NCBI GenBank assembly: GCA_937877295.1 | Contig: CALFIV010000100.1 | Span: 1 to 7,250, forward strand | Origin: an uncultured Clostridia bacterium | GTDB lineage: Bacteria; Bacillota_A; Clostridia; Christensenellales; CAG-138 | DNA length: 7,250 bases | Reading direction: 5' to 3' | In this document: piece after piece, positions 1 through 7,250 of the stretch | Position numbering within the stretch: position 1 is the first letter of the stretch | Layout of the letters: the number at the start of each line of letters is the position of its first letter | Translations under genes and position numbers: made by a program | Notes under the pieces: generated by a model | Databases searched by the model: none | Seen by the model: the letters and a program-made list of their open reading frames with translations, nothing else | Told to the model about the DNA's origin: nothing

Positions 1-1
1 G

Positions 2-139
2 GCCGCGCTGCCAGAGGACACGGATGAGCTAACGAAGCTCGCGAACCTCACCCGCATCGAGCTGGATCAAAGCAGCGCAGGCGGCGCGGCGCCGCTGCTG
101 AGCCGGTACGAGATCGTGCTGACGGGAGGCGGGCAATGA
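2..139 (+). CDS. C-terminal end of an LRR protein (5' truncated by window edge)
   Basis: An open frame enters at base 2 and runs 45 codons to a TGA at 137-139. The visible peptide has one leucine-rich-repeat-like stretch (LTKLANLTRIEL) followed by a terminal strand (LLSRYEIVL) and a short Gly-rich tail. The same ending, a last LRR and then an aromatic-acidic-hydrophobic strand, closes the next gene (FDIVLVP), closes the first LRR module of the third gene (NYEVVYP) and ends the third gene (DDYHFWL). This suggests the fragment is the tail of a paralogous membrane-LRR protein, perhaps also TIR-bearing, though nothing N-terminal is visible. Its stop codon overlaps the start of the next gene as ATGA, so the two are probably translated in a coupled way. 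Function beyond an LRR fold cannot be told from 45 residues. Confidence 0.72.
   Translation, partial: AALPEDTDELTKLANLTRIELDQSSAGGAAPLLSRYEIVLTGGGQ
124..129 (+). promoter_or_regulatory. Ribosome binding site of the TIR-LRR gene at 136
   Basis: GGGAGG lies 6 bases before the ATG at 136 and inside the last codons of the upstream gene. Together with the ATGA stop/start overlap at 136-139 it fixes this start and implies translational coupling, so no separate promoter is expected here. Confidence 0.7.
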
Positions 140-1311
140 GCGTCTATTTCAAGCCCTACGAGGGCAACCGCCCGTTCCTGTTCATCAGCTACGCCCATCG
201 CGATTCCGAGGCGGTCCTAAAAACCATCACGCTGCTCCATGACCGCAAGCTGCGCCTGTGGTATGACGAGGGCATTCCCGCCGGCAGCGACTGGCCGAAG
301 AACATTGAGCAGCACATGCAAAGCTGTTCGATGGTTCTGTTTTTCGTCTCTGAAACCGCTTTGGCTTCCGCCAACTGTTTGAGCGAGATCGAAGCCGCGC
401 TTGCGCAAAAAAAGCCCGTGCTGACGCTTCCGCTGGAAACGACGCTGCCGGACGCCGATTGGAGCGCGCTTTTGTCGCAGTGCACGCCGCTCGCATCCGC
501 CCCCGATGCGCATACGCGTGCCGATTCGGTGCTGTCGTGCAAGCAGATCACGCGTGCGTATTATCGAAAGCCGCTGGAAAATCTGCGATTCGATTGGCTT
601 GTGCTTGTGCTCGCGCTGCTGCTGTTTGCCGCCGCAGCGGCGGGGCTGTATGTGCTGATGACGGGACGGTTGGATCGCTATATCCTTCCGCCGCCGACGC
701 CCGCACCCACCGCGCGTCTGACGCCGAGCGCAACGCCCGTGTCCACCGCAACGCCGGAGCCGACGGCGACGCCATATGTGCCCGGCATGGAAAAGGTCGT
801 CTTTCCCGACGCAAAACAGGAGACGGCGGTGCGCGACGCACTTGACATTCCCAACGGGGATATCACGCTCTCCGATCTCGGCAGCATCACGGAGCTACAC
901 TTCTGCGGCACGATGGTGCTGAACGATCTTTCCGGCGTAGCGTATGCCGACGGCGTGTATACGGTAAACTCCGCAAAGCCGCTCATGGGACCCGTTTCGG
1001 ATCTTTCGGTGATCGGACGCATGCCGTATCTAAATAAGCTTTCGCTGATCATGCAGCCGGTGCAGTCGCTTGCCTCGCTCGAACGGCTCGTGCTGCTGAA
1101 CGAATTGAGCCTTGCGGGATGCGAAAGCGTGGACCTTTCTACGCTCCCGCCGCTTTCGAGCCTCAGCGTTTTGCATCTTGAACACAGCAATGTGCGCGAT
1201 CTTTCCGCGCTGAATACGCAGCCCGCACTGAAAACCGTGACCGTAAGCATCGAAATGCTGCCGCTGATCTTTTCGGACGATGCGGCGTTTGACATTGTAT
1301 TGGTACCGTAA
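136..1311 (+). CDS. Membrane-anchored TIR domain protein with C-terminal LRR ectodomain
   Basis: Encodes 391 residues. Residues about 14-100 form a TIR domain of the bacterial TIR_2 type: a first strand and box (LFISYAHRDS, 15-24), the WYDEGIPAG loop (42-50), the VLFFVSE strand (67-73) and the helix SANCLSEIEAAL (78-89). E84 sits where catalytic glutamates of NAD-cleaving TIRs lie, so NADase or cyclase activity is plausible but unproven. Residues about 154-176 are one hydrophobic span. Residues 185-215 are a Pro/Thr-rich linker, and about 230-391 hold roughly four short internalin-like LRRs (for example SDLSVIGRMPYLNKLSL) ending in a capping strand. The likely topology is TIR in the cytosol and LRRs outside; charges flanking the span do not settle this. 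The start is supported by GGGAGG and the ATGA overlap. The gene lies in a probable operon with a larger paralog and an HD-RyR protein. Most likely role: signal-receiving receptor with an enzymatic TIR. A plain protein-interaction TIR is the alternative. Confidence 0.88.
   Translation: MSVYFKPYEGNRPFLFISYAHRDSEAVLKTITLLHDRKLRLWYDEGIPAGSDWPKNIEQHMQSCSMVLFFVSETALASANCLSEIEAALAQKKPVLTLPLETTLPDADWSALLSQCTPLASAPDAHTRADSVLSCKQITRAYYRKPLENLRFDWLVLVLALLLFAAAAAGLYVLMTGRLDRYILPPPTPAPTARLTPSATPVSTATPEPTATPYVPGMEKVVFPDAKQETAVRDALDIPNGDITLSDLGSITELHFCGTMVLNDLSGVAYADGVYTVNSAKPLMGPVSDLSVIGRMPYLNKLSLIMQPVQSLASLERLVLLNELSLAGCESVDLSTLPPLSSLSVLHLEHSNVRDLSALNTQPALKTVTVSIEMLPLIFSDDAAFDIVLVP
688..780 (+). other. 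Pro/Thr-rich low-complexity linker in the TIR-LRR protein
   Basis: Codons 185-215 of the gene at 136 are dominated by Pro, Thr and Ala (repeating TPxPT and ATP units). The stretch directly follows the membrane span and separates it from the LRR domain. Such linkers are typical extracytoplasmic spacers in Gram-positive surface proteins, which supports the LRR part being outside the membrane. A shorter version (about residues 160-178, TPAPTAVP) sits at the same place in the next gene. Confidence 0.75.
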
Positions 1312-1329
1312 CCATCCAAACAATAGATC

Positions 1330-1336
1330 AAGGAGG
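1330..1336 (+). promoter_or_regulatory. Ribosome binding site of the large LRR gene
   Basis: AAGGAGG lies 5 bases upstream of the ATG at 1342, in the 30-base gap after the TAA at 1309-1311. It is a near-perfect Shine-Dalgarno sequence and decides this start. The gap shows no room or motif for a terminator, so the gene is probably co-transcribed with its upstream neighbour. Confidence 0.8.
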
Positions 1337-1341
1337 CTTAC

Positions 1342-4300
1342 ATGGCAAAAGCAACGTACCGAAAAAAGAAGCTGTTCCCCCTCTATGCGAGCGCCGATCA
1401 GGCGAAGGTTCAACCGATCCTCGATACGCTGAAAGCAAAGGGTTTTCCGATCGCAGAAGCAGGCGAAGCGCCGAACAAAAGCGGCGTAATGCTGCTGTTT
1501 CTTTCCGAACGGCTCAAAGACGAACCGGCGATTCTTGACACGTTCTTTGCCAATGACGCGAAGGGCGCGGAAGCGATTCCGGTGAACTTAGATGGGTCGA
1601 ACCCGCCGGAGCTTTTGAAAAACGCGCTTTATTCGCGTAATACGATCTTTGCGGAGCGCTACTCCGTCGACGAGCTTACGGAGCGCATCGCGACCGCAAA
1701 GCCGTTTGAGACGGCAAAAAAGCCCTTGCCGATCATTCTGATCGCCGCTGCCGCCGCGCTGGTGATCGCCGGAGCGATCTTTTTGATCACAAAACTGCTG
1801 CCCGCAAAGGAGACGGTCGCCGCTGAACCCGAGGTCACGCCCGCGCCGACGGCAGTGCCGATCATCCCCGCCGAAGCCGGTCTTTTGCCCGAGGACCTCG
1901 AGAGCGTACACGAGCTGATCATCATGGGCGATACGCTGCACTACTTCACCGGTCGCGAGGGCTGGGTCTCGCAGCGCGGCTGGGCGCGCGTCGGCGCGGA
2001 GTACTTCGCGAGCCACGGAGAGCAGGACGGCGAAGTGCATTGGTACAGCAAAGAAGACGGGCACGAAATCGAGATGGCGGAATGGACCGATCTTGACTTT
2101 TTGCGCTACATGAAGAACGTGAAGATGATCACGCTCGTGCGGGTCAAAGGCGCGCTCCCCGATCTTTCGGGCCTTGAAAAGCTCGACAATGTGGAGCTGT
2201 TCGAATGCGATATTGCCGACATCGAAGGCCTCCGCGGAACGAGGATCACGCACTTAGGCTATTCCGGCAATACGCTGACCGATTTCTCCCCGCTGTCCGA
2301 CTGCGCGCGTCTCCGCAGCGTCAACCTGACGCTGTTCGATCCGATCCCGCAGGATCTGACCTCATTCGGACCGCCGAGCCTGACCGAGCTTATGATTGAC
2401 ACCGACAGTTCATCGCGATCGGTCGACCTTTCGGGACTGAAAAACTGTCCGGAGCTGACCAGCGTTACGCTTGACAGTCTGCCTTTGACTGATCTCGACT
2501 GTCTTTCCGCGTGCAAAAAACTGCGCGAACTGGAGCTTGTGACCATGTCGGGGCTTCGAAGCATCAATGGCTTGCAGAATCATCAGCAACTGGTGCGCCT
2601 GTTTGTGGATTATCAGAGCGAAGATCTGTCTGACATGTCCGCGCTTTCGGACAATACGAGTCTCCAATATGTCGACCTGCACAACAACGCGCTTTCCGAC
2701 CTTTCCTGGCTTTCCAATGCGACGAATTTACAGGAATTGCAGCTTTGGTATACGAACGGCGTACGCACTCTCCGCGGGCTCGAAGACCATACGAAGCTGC
2801 ACAGCCTGTACATCCAGGGGCTCGAACGGCTCACCGACATCTCCGCGCTCGGAAGCTGCACGGGGCTTCAGCAGATCACCATGAGCGAGGTGTTTGACCT
2901 TGCGGATATTTCCCCGATCGTCAAGCTGCCGCGGCTCAACGACCTGCAAATCTACGGCTCACGGCTCGAGGACGTCAATTTCCTTTCAGACATTGTCAAC
3001 AAAAACGGCTTTAGCTTCGGCATTGCGGAGGTACGGGACTGGTCGGGACTCGAAGCGATCAAAAACTACAATTTCCTGAACGTCACCGACCGCACCAGCA
3101 GCGCACTGCCCTATCTCAAGGACGCGAAGGTCAACACCTTCGAACTCTGGTGCCGCAGCGGCGTCAGTGATTGGAGCCGGGAGCCGCTCGACTGGTCGCA
3201 GTTCCCGACCGTCTCTCAGGAGCTGCGGCTGCACGGCGTCGTATCGCTTTCGGGGATGCCGGAGCTTTCGCTGCATCGGTTGAGCATTGACGATTCGCAG
3301 CTTTTAAACTCGCTCGACGGTATTCAGAACCTGCTTGCCACGCGCTACGGCACGCTGTATCTGGAAATCACCGGCTGTCCGCGCTTGACTGACTGGTCAG
3401 CGATGAACGGATTGAAATTCAACCAGATCTATCTGGACAGCACCTTTACCCTGCCCGATTTCTTGACGTTCGAAGCGGATTGGATCTCGCTTTGTACGCC
3501 GGTCGATCTCCATGATCTGCACTGCTTCGACGGCATGAACCCCGAAGAGAGCGTTTCGATCGAGCTGATCGAAACCAACGACGTGACCGACCTTTCCCCG
3601 CTGTACGGGATCAAAAACGGCAACGTGCTGAAGATCCCGGCGCATCTTCAGGAGCAGGCGCAGCTGCTTGTGGACAGCGGCAATTTCCGCAATTACGAGG
3701 TCGTCTATCCGGACGAATGGTGGGAGCCCGCCGAATTCGACGTCATGCTTCTCTCGCTTGACGAGCTGGACACGCTGCCGAGCGCGGTATTGAAGCGCGT
3801 GAACAAACTGAACATGGTGGGCGATGTGATCTTCAGCTGGGACGATTACTGGGTGGATCAGCAATGGGATGACGGACAGGCGACCTTTACGCTGCGATCC
3901 AACGACGGTGACGAAAGCCACGATATCGTGATCGAGAATCGCGGCACGCTGACGGATTTTTCGAAGCTCGCTGTTTTGACGGGTCTCGAGGAGCTTTCCC
4001 TGCAGTATCAGTCGTTCGACTCGCTTGAAGGCGCGCAGAACCTTGAAAACCTCTGGAAGCTTGAGGTCGCGTTCACGCCGTCGCTTACCGACGCGTCCGC
4101 GGCGTTTACGCTGCAAAATCTCGAAGAGCTGCGGCTGCAGTACACCGGCGTCACAAGCCTCATGGGCGTGCAGAATCTTACAAAGCTCCGTTGGGTGGAT
4201 TTCAACGGGCTGAACCTCGACGATCTGACGCCGCTTGCCGCCATCCCGGAGGACTGTGATTTCTCGTTCGATTTCCCGCTGATGACGGTCGAAGAATTTA

Positions 4301-5187
4301 TGGCTCTGCCGGAGGGCGTGCTTGACATGATCGGAGAGATCGCGATTTCCGGAAACTACGTGCACAGCCCGTGGGGCGATTGGCAGTTTGAAACCGACTG
4401 GGGTACGCACAAAACCTATATGCACTGCAACAGCACCGGCGAGCGTATTCCTTGCGAAGTCGGACCCGTCACGGACCTCAACGACCTTCCCGTGATGAAA
4501 AACCTTCGGAATTTGCAGATCAACCGGCAGCCGATCGAAAATCTGAACGGCGTTGAAAAGCAGCCGAACATGCGGCAGTTCCGTATGCAGTGGTGCCCGG
4601 GCGTGACGGACGTTTCCCTGCTGTTTACCCTGCCGCAAATCGAAGATATCAGCGTGCGCGATTCGAACGTCACGTCTCTACAGGGCATCGGCGCGCTCAA
4701 GCATCTGACCCGCGTGGACTTCGGCGGAGGCGGCGTGCCGATCCATACGCTGTCGTGGCTTGAAGAAATCGACTTCACCTATGCCGAAACGCCGGACGAG
4801 AACGGCGACGTGCCGCACTTCGATCTGCAGATCGACTGGTGGGACCTTGATGATGATGCGGAGTATCAATATCTTGCGCTTGTGCCTGAATACAGCTTCC
4901 TGAACATCAACGGGCATCAGGCATCGAAGTGGGTGGATGTGCTGAAAGACAAGCGGATCGGAGGCATCGCCGTGCAGGAATGCAAGTTCGACAACGAGAC
5001 GTTCAAAACGTTCATCGAACAGCATCCGGAGCTTACGGAGATCAATATACCCAACAATCCCCGGCTCACGGACATTTCGATTCTGCTGACGCTTAAGAAT
5101 CTGCGCAATGTCTGGATCTCTGACAATATGCGGCAGGCGAGAGAATCGCTCGGCGACGATTATCACTTCTGGCTGGGAAACGAATGA
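1342..5187 (+). CDS. Giant membrane-anchored LRR protein with degenerate N-terminal TIR-like domain
   Basis: Encodes 1281 residues. Residues about 10-100 look like a shrunken TIR fold: an opening strand LFPLYASADQ (11-20), then VMLLFLSERL (49-58) and AIPVNL (78-83), matching in order the strands of the neighbouring TIR. The WYDEG loop region is missing, and the position of the catalytic glutamate appears to be D66, so NADase activity is unlikely. Residues about 128-150 are one membrane span with Lys on the N-terminal side (K126, K127), consistent with N-in. A short Pro-rich linker follows. The rest is extracytoplasmic LRRs: a large module (residues about 181-793, near 19 repeats of 21-24 residues with consensus LsxLxxxxxLxxLxL) and two short four-repeat modules (about 803-979 and 980-1150). 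An irregular C-terminal part with one or two further repeats ends in a capping strand. Likely role: ligand-binding co-receptor or scaffold for the catalytic TIR paralog upstream. No known named family is recognised. Confidence 0.88.
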   Translation: MAKATYRKKKLFPLYASADQAKVQPILDTLKAKGFPIAEAGEAPNKSGVMLLFLSERLKDEPAILDTFFANDAKGAEAIPVNLDGSNPPELLKNALYSRNTIFAERYSVDELTERIATAKPFETAKKPLPIILIAAAAALVIAGAIFLITKLLPAKETVAAEPEVTPAPTAVPIIPAEAGLLPEDLESVHELIIMGDTLHYFTGREGWVSQRGWARVGAEYFASHGEQDGEVHWYSKEDGHEIEMAEWTDLDFLRYMKNVKMITLVRVKGALPDLSGLEKLDNVELFECDIADIEGLRGTRITHLGYSGNTLTDFSPLSDCARLRSVNLTLFDPIPQDLTSFGPPSLTELMIDTDSSSRSVDLSGLKNCPELTSVTLDSLPLTDLDCLSACKKLRELELVTMSGLRSINGLQNHQQLVRLFVDYQSEDLSDMSALSDNTSLQYVDLHNNALSDLSWLSNATNLQELQLWYTNGVRTLRGLEDHTKLHSLYIQGLERLTDISALGSCTGLQQITMSEVFDLADISPIVKLPRLNDLQIYGSRLEDVNFLSDIVNKNGFSFGIAEVRDWSGLEAIKNYNFLNVTDRTSSALPYLKDAKVNTFELWCRSGVSDWSREPLDWSQFPTVSQELRLHGVVSLSGMPELSLHRLSIDDSQLLNSLDGIQNLLATRYGTLYLEITGCPRLTDWSAMNGLKFNQIYLDSTFTLPDFLTFEADWISLCTPVDLHDLHCFDGMNPEESVSIELIETNDVTDLSPLYGIKNGNVLKIPAHLQEQAQLLVDSGNFRNYEVVYPDEWWEPAEFDVMLLSLDELDTLPSAVLKRVNKLNMVGDVIFSWDDYWVDQQWDDGQATFTLRSNDGDESHDIVIENRGTLTDFSKLAVLTGLEELSLQYQSFDSLEGAQNLENLWKLEVAFTPSLTDASAAFTLQNLEELRLQYTGVTSLMGVQNLTKLRWVDFNGLNLDDLTPLAAIPEDCDFSFDFPLMTVEEFMALPEGVLDMIGEIAISGNYVHSPWGDWQFETDWGTHKTYMHCNSTGERIPCEVGPVTDLNDLPVMKNLRNLQINRQPIENLNGVEKQPNMRQFRMQWCPGVTDVSLLFTLPQIEDISVRDSNVTSLQGIGALKHLTRVDFGGGGVPIHTLSWLEEIDFTYAETPDENGDVPHFDLQIDWWDLDDDAEYQYLALVPEYSFLNINGHQASKWVDVLKDKRIGGIAVQECKFDNETFKTFIEQHPELTEINIPNNPRLTDISILLTLKNLRNVWISDNMRQARESLGDDYHFWLGNE
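1369..1641 (+). other. Degenerate TIR-like domain (codons about 10-100 of the large LRR protein)
   Basis: Order and spacing of hydrophobic strands match the TIR domain of the upstream gene: LFPLYASADQ against LFISYAHRDS, LLFLSE against LFFVSE, and IPVNLD against LPLETT. About a dozen residues are lost between the first helix and the LLFLSE strand, including the WYDEG loop. The helix after LLFLSE reads AILDTFFA where the paralog has CLSEIEAA, placing Asp at the catalytic Glu position. The assignment comes from hand alignment only, so it is moderately supported. Confidence 0.6.
3748..4791 (+). repeat. Two tandem capped LRR modules (diverged protein-level duplication)
   Basis: Codons about 803-979 and 980-1150 of the large LRR protein share one layout. 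Each opens with a cap of the form LPxxVLxxIxxLxxxG (812-828 and 989-1005), then a tryptophan-rich insertion (W833, W837, W842; W1011, W1014, W1020), then four LRRs in the same order. The third repeat in each contains FTLxxxE with VTS at its end, and the fourth contains L-x-G and ends in VDF. The similarity is evident in protein but diverged, so this is an old duplication. A related cap (residues 182-197, W208, W214) opens the large first module. Confidence 0.75.
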
Positions 5188-5205: not shown

Positions 5206-5212
5206 AGGGAGG
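5206..5212 (+). promoter_or_regulatory. Ribosome binding site of the HD-RyR gene
   Basis: AGGGAGG lies 8 bases before the ATG at 5221 in a 33-base gap after the TGA at 5185-5187. Another ATG at 5214 is too close to this site and opens a frame of only 19 codons, so 5221 is the start. Confidence 0.8.
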
Positions 5213-5220
5213 AATGAAAC

Positions 5221-7250
5221 ATGGCGTACACCGCTTTGGAACAGATGCGAAAGACAAACAAAGAACGCTATAACACGGACGTGGGTCCGTTCGAACCGTC
5301 GCTGTACGGTGCGGGAAGACTTGGCAGCGATCTGAAATCCGCCGCCTTGCGGTTTTTGCACGAGCGCTGCGAGGGGCTTCGCTTCTCGCCCGAAAAGGCG
5401 AAGCAGGAGGAGCAAACGGGAACGTATCTCGGTACAAGCTACCGTCCGAACCAGATCCCGTACAACATGCAGATGGATCTCGACCGGCTGTGCCTCGAGC
5501 GTGAGCTGGAAGCGTTTATCGACTCCGGCGTGGCCGAGGACGCGTACACCGTGTACTACAGCTTCCTCGAAATGTTCATGGGTGCGTACGGGCGTTCGAG
5601 CAAGATGATCGAGTTGCTGTCGGAATTTGAGTCGAACGCGAGCTCGCTGCTGATGAAGCACCGCGATCATTATTCGCATTCGGTCTATGTCTTTGCTTTG
5701 GGACTTGCGATCTATGAAACGAACGAAACCTTCCGCAAGACATTTCAGACGTTTTACGGCTTCAAACCCTGTGAAGACGAGCACCGCGCCGCGGCATTCT
5801 TCCTCGAATACTGGGGGCTGACCTCGCTGTTCCACGACATCGGCTATCCGTTCGAAATTCCCTTTGAACAGGTGCTTGCCTATTTCGAGGTGGATCGCAG
5901 ATCGCGCGGAGAGGGCAGCATGTTCCTTGCCTACCGCGATCTTGATTGTCTCGACAATCTCGGCGAGGAAGCAAAGGCACATTTTTCCGAGCTGTTCGGT
6001 CGGTCATTCGGCTCGGTTGAGGAGCTGCTTGCGTACGGCATCGAAAAGCGGCTCGGAACCGCATACGACGTGACGGAGGAGTACCTTTGCGATACGATCA
6101 AGCGAAAGCCCACCGAGCCGAACACGTTCGGATATTTCATGGACCATGCGTATTTTTCCGCGACGCGGCTCTATCAGGAGCTTGTGGAACGGTGCGGCGC
6201 GAATGCGCTTACCGAAGCGCATGTGGACGTGCTGTCCGCAATCATGCTGCACAACAGCATGTTCAAGTTCGCGATCGCGTTCTATAAATCCAAGGACAAG
6301 CGCAAAGCGCCTCTCAGAATGGAGCTGCATCCGCTCGCGTATCTGCTGATGCTCTGCGACGAGCTGCAGTGCTGGGACCGCACCGCCTACGGCAGAAACT
6401 CGCGCACGGAGCTGCATCCGATGGACGCGGAGTTCGATTTCGCCCGCGGCATGATCCACGCGCTGTACTGCTTCGACGCCGAGGAATCCGAAAAGATCGG
6501 TGCGTATGAGGCGGAGTATCGCGCGTGGGAGCAGAACGGCGCAGCCGGAAAGCCGCCGCGGCTTAAGGCATACAGCGACATGGCGGAGCAGGAACAGCGC
6601 TTCCGCACCGACATCGAAAAGATCGTCGACCTTTCCGGTTATCCGCTGTTCATCACCACCTTTATGCGCACCGCTGACCGCAGGAGCAAGCATACGTATC
6701 TCTCCGGCAGCAGCTTTTTGCACATGTACGACTTCGCTGTCGCGCTGAACGGTCGGTATCAGTATGAGGGTCAGGAGGAGGGGATCAGCGTGGAAGCCCT
6801 CGAGCGGGATTTCGACAGCATGTCCCTGGAATACAAGCTCTATAACATCAACCAGGTCAAGAGCTTTTCAAAGTACCTCAACGCCATCGACTGCTTCTAC
6901 ACGGATCGCCCCGTCGATTTTGAGATGCTGCGCGCCTTTACCGAGGAGCAGATCGCCGTGTTCGCGCCTATGGAGCACGCGCGCTGGGTGCTGTCGCATA
7001 AGGCAATGGGCTGGACAGCGGGCGACCTTTACGAGACCTCCGCGGTTCCGGAGGGCACGAATCGCTATTGCCTGCGCGAGCAGATGCGACAGCACAAGCT
7101 TTGCATGAACGGTGATTTCGGCGAGCTCGAGATCGCGCGGCACTATCTGCAGCTGCCGGAAGAGGAGCAGGGCAAGGACTGGAAGCCGTTCAACACCATG
7201 CTGAAGCTGATCCGCAAGTTCGACGGACTGCGCATCTACAAGCTTGACTG
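5221..7250 (+). CDS. HD-domain phosphohydrolase with C-terminal RyR-like domain (stop just at or beyond window edge)
   Basis: The frame is open for 676 full codons and leaves TG as the first two bases of the next codon. No signal peptide or membrane span is seen, so the protein is probably cytosolic. Residues about 143-390 carry an HD-superfamily metal-ligand pattern: H153 in HYSHSVYVF (H147 and H150 are nearby alternatives), H205-D206 in LFHDIGYP, H344 in IMLHN, and D380 in LLMLCDELQCWDR. HD enzymes hydrolyse phosphomonoesters, nucleotides or cyclic nucleotides with bound metal; the substrate here is unknown. Residues about 391-574 are a mostly helical connector. Residues about 575-676 resemble the prokaryotic RyR domain: MEHARWVLSHKAMGW (584-598), then a QH-K segment (624-626) and LPEEEQGKDW (645-654). 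The frame ends about where such a domain normally ends, so TGA is likely the stop. It follows the two TIR/TIR-like receptors in a probable operon. It may respond to, or destroy, a nucleotide signal; this is inference. Confidence 0.86.
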   Translation, partial: MAYTALEQMRKTNKERYNTDVGPFEPSLYGAGRLGSDLKSAALRFLHERCEGLRFSPEKAKQEEQTGTYLGTSYRPNQIPYNMQMDLDRLCLERELEAFIDSGVAEDAYTVYYSFLEMFMGAYGRSSKMIELLSEFESNASSLLMKHRDHYSHSVYVFALGLAIYETNETFRKTFQTFYGFKPCEDEHRAAAFFLEYWGLTSLFHDIGYPFEIPFEQVLAYFEVDRRSRGEGSMFLAYRDLDCLDNLGEEAKAHFSELFGRSFGSVEELLAYGIEKRLGTAYDVTEEYLCDTIKRKPTEPNTFGYFMDHAYFSATRLYQELVERCGANALTEAHVDVLSAIMLHNSMFKFAIAFYKSKDKRKAPLRMELHPLAYLLMLCDELQCWDRTAYGRNSRTELHPMDAEFDFARGMIHALYCFDAEESEKIGAYEAEYRAWEQNGAAGKPPRLKAYSDMAEQEQRFRTDIEKIVDLSGYPLFITTFMRTADRRSKHTYLSGSSFLHMYDFAVALNGRYQYEGQEEGISVEALERDFDSMSLEYKLYNINQVKSFSKYLNAIDCFYTDRPVDFEMLRAFTEEQIAVFAPMEHARWVLSHKAMGWTAGDLYETSAVPEGTNRYCLREQMRQHKLCMNGDFGELEIARHYLQLPEEEQGKDWKPFNTMLKLIRKFDGLRIYKLD
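6943..7248 (+). other. RyR-like domain (codons about 575-676 of the HD protein)
   Basis: The segment shows the hallmark order of bacterial RyR domains: an EHxRW helix start (E585, H586, R588, W589), a GW pair (G597, W598) followed by Gly-Asp, a basic-His stretch (R623, Q624, H625, K626), an LPEEE helix start (645-649), a Lys-Asp-Trp and a final hydrophobic strand (LRIYKL). Ryanodine-receptor repeat domains in prokaryotes have been proposed to act in nucleotide-linked signalling or conflict systems. The assignment is from motif memory, not a profile search. Confidence 0.72.

Follow-up and report, generated by a model that had tools for sequence, protein, structure and literature searches.

The TIR - helix - LRR architecture encoded by gene B of the window (the whole stretch of 7,250 nucleotides that was analysed) is real, recurs within one family, and is set among coherent nucleotide-signal genes. 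Together these form a conserved operon, which probably converts a signal from outside the cell into an NAD-derived messenger. The following features were located in the window:

1..139, forward strand: 3' end of gene A, the upstream paralogue of B (tblastn with A of locus L002 gives 70% identity over 5-133)
136..1311, forward strand: gene B, 391 aa, TIR - membrane helix - linker - internalin-type LRR
169..582, forward strand: TIR domain of B, residues 12-149, with the probable catalytic Glu84 at 385-387
589..663, forward strand: membrane helix of B, residues 152-176
664..780, forward strand: Pro/Thr-rich linker of B, residues 177-215, of low confidence in the structure model (pLDDT 41-61 at residues 181-220)
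781..1308, forward strand: ectodomain of B, internalin-type cap and LRR, residues 216-391
1330..1336, forward strand: ribosome-binding site of gene C, AAGGAGG, identified by eye
1342..5187, forward strand: gene C, 1281 aa, degenerate TIR (about residues 6-119), helix (131-149) and large LRR ectodomain
5207..5212, forward strand: ribosome-binding site of gene D, GGGAGG, identified by eye
5221..7250, forward strand: gene D, 676 aa, HD-type hydrolase-like fold and RyR domain; the stop codon is cut by the contig end
6898..7248, forward strand: RyR domain of D, residues 560-676, with H586, W589, H625 and D653

The preliminary description of ORF 136-1311 had proposed an N-terminal TIR, a single hydrophobic span (154-176), a Pro/Thr linker and C-terminal LRRs, in an order opposite to that of animal Toll-like receptors and with the LRR outside and the TIR inside the cell. 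The analysis bears this out: a TIR fold was found in B, one membrane helix is predicted, and the linker and the capped, internalin-type LRR region follow it in the expected order. The charge bias around the helix is positive-inside in 20 of 21 B proteins, suggesting that the TIR is probably inside the cell and the LRR outside. None of the outcomes that had been named as fatal to the proposal (no TIR match, no membrane helix, LRR and TIR on one side of the membrane) was found, and B belongs to a conserved family, so that its reading as a chance ORF was rejected. The description of B as a single membrane receptor held for the receptor architecture but not for its solitude, as B is one of three paralogues and is accompanied by D and, in relatives, by a further gene, E.

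The proposed catalytic Glu of B is likewise sustained. Among solved structures, the TIR NADase Cat1, whose active site is formed by assembly, is the best sequence match to the B TIR profile, and residues E84, S18, D44 and S78 of B, which align with Cat1 E74, S7, D33 and S68, are invariant in 40/40 aligned homologues. The same profile also matches, weakly, the TIRs of TLR15 (0.0006) and MyD88 (0.008). Against ThsB_TIR, B scores 20.0 bits for a cut-off of 21.2, and with PADLOC it matches the ThsB model at 6.6e-6, over the TIR part only, the B TIR matches being weak; PADLOC gave no match for C or D.

In relatives, gene A encodes a degenerate TIR, a helix and a short ectodomain, and in the window its TGA stop (137-139) and the start codon of B (ATG, 136-138) overlap in an ATGA junction. 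Profile comparison of A with B gave 99.3% over 229 columns, reaching through the helix, and that of C with B gave 97.2% over the TIR. Reading the alignments by eye, Glu is absent at the E84 position in 8/8 A proteins and in 8/9 C proteins (the exception being that of locus L075), and the C TIR lacks WYDE and some 12 residues beyond it. A, B and C are therefore taken as paralogues, with one probable enzyme among them: the full NADase signature is kept in B alone, and the other two receptors of the set are probably not enzymes. The C ectodomain matches LRR_4 at 3.8e-26. Measured from stop to stop, complete C frames are 928 to 1895 residues long, and two C genes occur in tandem in four genomes (G711, G726, G701 and G698), one of those in G701 being cut by the contig end. 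Two further arrangements of these genes were observed. At L003 (9974-11227), the A and B frames are fused into one ORF by a frame change in a MAG contig, perhaps a sequencing error. L080 (1482-11162; contig 235 of G150) holds six successive ORFs, each with a predicted helix and each matching A, B or C in the TIR, the LRR or both, and this array of TIR-helix-LRR-like proteins adjoins a partial D-like gene.

The gene order was compared over 23 B loci, from 22 genomes and the window, leaving out a weak match in G150. A lies directly 5' of B in 23/23 loci, and C directly 3' of B in 22/23, the contig ending inside B in the remaining one (G003). D is beside the A-B-C triad in 14/23 loci, preceding A in G003 and G013. 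Of the nine others, four have C cut off by the contig end (G001, G701, G705, G715), D is located elsewhere in four (G257, G719, G724, G741), and no D was found in G717. Among the 13 non-window loci with D beside the triad, E is directly 3' of D in 11, and on another contig in G003 and G013; in G257 and G724, E follows C. The lone-receptor reading of B was rejected, as the A/C/D neighbourhood recurs across loci. I infer that E is also present in the window's own organism. The longest contig for the D cluster of the window (P0121) and the longest for an E protein (P0247) are both one of 6885 bases, a hint, short of proof, that E may lie 3' of D there.

Co-occurrence follows the same pattern in the family of G102, where, among 103 genomes, B is found in 21, D in 26 and E in 27. 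B occurs with D in 19/21 genomes (exceptions G705 and G717; Fisher p 5e-13) and with E in 20/21 (exception G719; p 2e-14), while D occurs with E in 23/26 (p 7e-16), all three p values ignoring kinship. Full B is rare beyond this family: in the order-level sample, it was found in 7/297 genomes (E < 1e-50), six of them in the family of G102; G257, which has full B, is outside the 103 genomes. In the class-level sample, B was found in 1/391 genomes at 1e-60 (G002). A motif scan of order-wide TIR/LRR matches was too crude for counting the TIR-helix-LRR architecture. No B relatives were found in viral contigs, and neither B nor D on plasmids.

The 71 flanking ORFs picked around these loci are mostly transport or housekeeping genes in appearance, and form no clear defence island. 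PADLOC matched 49 families among the flanking ORFs; the best 25 of these 49 include mads and PD-T4-6 models, with at most 3 members each, which I take for ABC ATPases and kinases. The defence-island argument was therefore rejected, and the immune role is accordingly putative.

The D family profile matches an RyR1 repeat structure at 2.2e-21. PF02026 is matched by 20/39 D proteins, but the D of the window, searched by itself, gives no match. Residues H586, W589 and D653 are kept in 13/13 loci, and H625 in 7/13. The hydrolase-like domain, a candidate HD or class I cyclic nucleotide phosphodiesterase, has His/Asp invariant in 13/13 loci. A Foldseek search with D returned nothing at E <= 0.001 (an RyR3 repeat appears at E 0.77, probability 0.80), and a separate search with residues 35-485, the RyR domain being residues 560-676, gave no RyR hit. 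Phage RyR proteins bind or cleave cADPR isomers, including binding of 2'/3'cADPR (PMC13232231). A full-length D relative with 34% identity was observed in MT836912.1 (3913-6195), an unannotated sequence of 8,290 bases from a human faecal sample, the only member of the phage collection searched to carry one. Near D-like genes, L081 encodes a multi-helix protein whose C-terminus matches RyR at a score slightly under cut-off (11119-12954, beside the D-like gene) and a nitroreductase-TIR fusion (15463-16587), and in L085, L088 and L092 longer D-like proteins (751-754 aa) have in their vicinity a 724-726 aa protein with several helices; a Pfam scan of L085 and L092 matched no family.

E, in relatives, appears to combine a SLOG domain with a SLATT/DUF4231-type membrane part. 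Its members match YAcAr in 16/25 and DUF4231, which I take to be SLATT-related, in 20/25 (E <= 0.01), and one protein (P0285) carries both in its precomputed annotation. The matches are under the curated cut-off for the E of L002, and the E-like protein of L082 reaches 16.2 bits against SLATT_3 for a cut-off of 26.3. SIR2 is absent from the families listed for the 25 E members, and from B, C and D in the domain search. The E profile gave a single match among solved structures, at chance level. In the available sections of PMC9503650 and PMC7159879, SLATT is predicted to be a nucleotide- or ADPr-driven pore, and is found beside TIRs.

Comparison of the window with its relatives shows that the parts of the operon have diverged unevenly. 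Relative to G002, identities are 81% for B inside, 81% for B outside, 64% for C outside and 85% for D; relative to G102, they are 59, 47, 43 and 86%; and relative to G084, 59% for B inside and 25% for D. Among near relatives, the C ectodomain diverges most of the parts compared. Receptors and D are therefore out of step in evolution. Receptor and D blocks have probably been exchanged, and, judged by these identities, the same slot is filled by two remote D types.

D and E also occur with other partners. In four genomes (G182, G700, G714, G715), D or the D-E pair is partnered by a TIR-helix-protein with beta-propeller-like matches, most propeller models being under cut-offs (L083 5952-8492; L168 6576-9380; L172 5946-8699; L175 5327-8032; E is also present in L083 and L168). 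In L082 (G048, 10190-15345), a Ser/Thr kinase - helix - LRR protein, a kinase variant of this arrangement, neighbours a remote D-like gene and, on the opposite strand, an E-like gene. In L084 (G267, 2021-7325), D and E are separated by a TIR-TIR-TPR protein and a kinase-like protein, the latter identified by eye. These varied partners are therefore read as exchangeable sensors, which would be swapped over a common D/E output. Kinase - helix proteins were also seen beside an A-B-C triad, in L115 (G717, 11930-17985), one of them with LRRs (LRR_4 9.3e-44, kinase 1.2e-37).

From the computed domains, charge bias, conserved catalytic residues, gene order and co-occurrence, I infer a mechanism running from ligand and complex formation, through NAD cleavage and the identity of the messenger, to the effect on the cell and the sign of D action. 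In each of A, B and C, the TIR-type domain would lie within the cell and the ectodomain on its outer face, the ligand being met mainly by the large, variable LRR of C. Ligand binding would assemble the three TIRs and switch on B, which would convert NAD+ to an ADP-ribose-type messenger. The SLOG domain of E would bind this messenger, and a change in its SLATT-like membrane part would permeabilise the membrane or stop growth; D, with its RyR and hydrolase-like parts, would bind or destroy the messenger, setting a threshold or ending the signal. I give an even chance to B being the catalytic subunit of a membrane three-receptor set that feeds E and D in this way. The fuller proposal is a bacterial cell-surface pattern-recognition receptor of three co-receptors, one TIR enzyme with two pseudo-TIRs. 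On sensing a ligand outside the cell, these would produce a messenger of cyclic-ADPR type, for which a SLOG membrane channel and a dedicated RyR-domain protein would be the readers. It is offered tentatively, at slightly below even probability.

Several other readings have to be weighed against this. The absence of a defence island and of plasmid copies, together with a sensor located outside the cell and the occurrence of kinase-helix-LRR and TIR-helix-propeller designs beside D and E, fits receptors that are sensory rather than immune, reporting wall stress, peptides, glycans or neighbours through a messenger that tunes membrane physiology. However, the exchange of receptor blocks and D, the tandem C copies and the fast C ectodomains fit an arms race, and in the literature covered, those bacterial TIR signalling systems that have been characterised act in phage defence; a purely sensory role is quite possible, while clearly short of an even chance. 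D could itself be an effector, its RyR domain sensing the B product and its HD-type hydrolase destroying cellular nucleotides, with E as a second effector. It has a hydrolase-like domain of its own, with the invariant His/Asp noted above, and 3 of the 26 genomes with D have no E, but its linkage to the SLOG-SLATT-like protein in the other 23 and the removal of signal by known phage RyR proteins (PMC13232231) make this unlikely. Least probable by far is that the B TIR is a scaffold as in MyD88, producing no messenger: the weak matches to TLR15 and MyD88 would agree with it, whereas the four invariant residues, the ranking of Cat1 and the nucleotide-signalling partner domains of D and E all argue against it.

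By analogy, the operon may work like Thoeris, in which a TIR enzyme (ThsB) is likewise expected to yield an ADPR-type signal for a SLOG-bearing effector (ThsA, SIR2-SLOG or macro-type). In contrast to Thoeris, B is a membrane receptor whose LRR is predicted to lie outside, genes A, C and D are additional, and neither a SIR2 nor a macro domain is reported in E; ThsA is absent, and the operon is therefore no Thoeris system. Similarly, B may work like a Toll-like receptor, sharing with those of animals (in B as predicted) the outside LRR, the one helix and the inside TIR. Its TIR-first order is reversed, and B is therefore no Toll-like receptor by domain order; it also differs in its internalin-type LRR, its enzyme-type TIR, and its nucleotide-signal partners, with no adaptor or kinase cascade seen among them. 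Unlike the Listeria internalins, B has its LRR anchored through a membrane helix to a TIR that is predicted to be inside.

A 2015 comparative-genomics paper reportedly predicted SLOG-SLATT and TIR-SLATT neighbourhoods. In the available sections of PMC9503650 and PMC7159879, such predicted neighbourhoods resemble the present one in having SLOG and 2TM effector-like parts beside a TIR, whereas here there is a receptor triad with predicted outside LRRs and an HD-RyR partner. The phage RyDEP and other PF02026 RyR-domain proteins (PMC13232231) have His, Trp and Asp at positions matching those of the D RyR; D, by contrast, is a cellular gene of putative activity, in which the RyR domain is joined to an HD-type fold and which neighbours the TIR gene. 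No such operon is described in the available sections of PMC7075850, PMC13142454 and PMC8635717. The literature search, at the level of listings and abstracts, turned up no account of such an operon, in line with the suggestion that this receptor may be uncharacterised. An earlier mention, including of the D-E pair, is possible in comparative genomics (2015, 2020) or in a 2025 TIR survey.

The bacterial TIR systems that have been studied in depth generally detect their triggers from within the cell. If the proposed mechanism is true, an enzymatic TIR wired to an outside LRR would mean that Toll-like surface sensing had been invented separately here, and a single operon would link a Toll-like input with an output resembling cADPR/RyR signalling. 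With an RyR domain encoded beside a likely producer of a cADPR-type signal, the old question of the RyR repeat ligand would become testable in bacteria.
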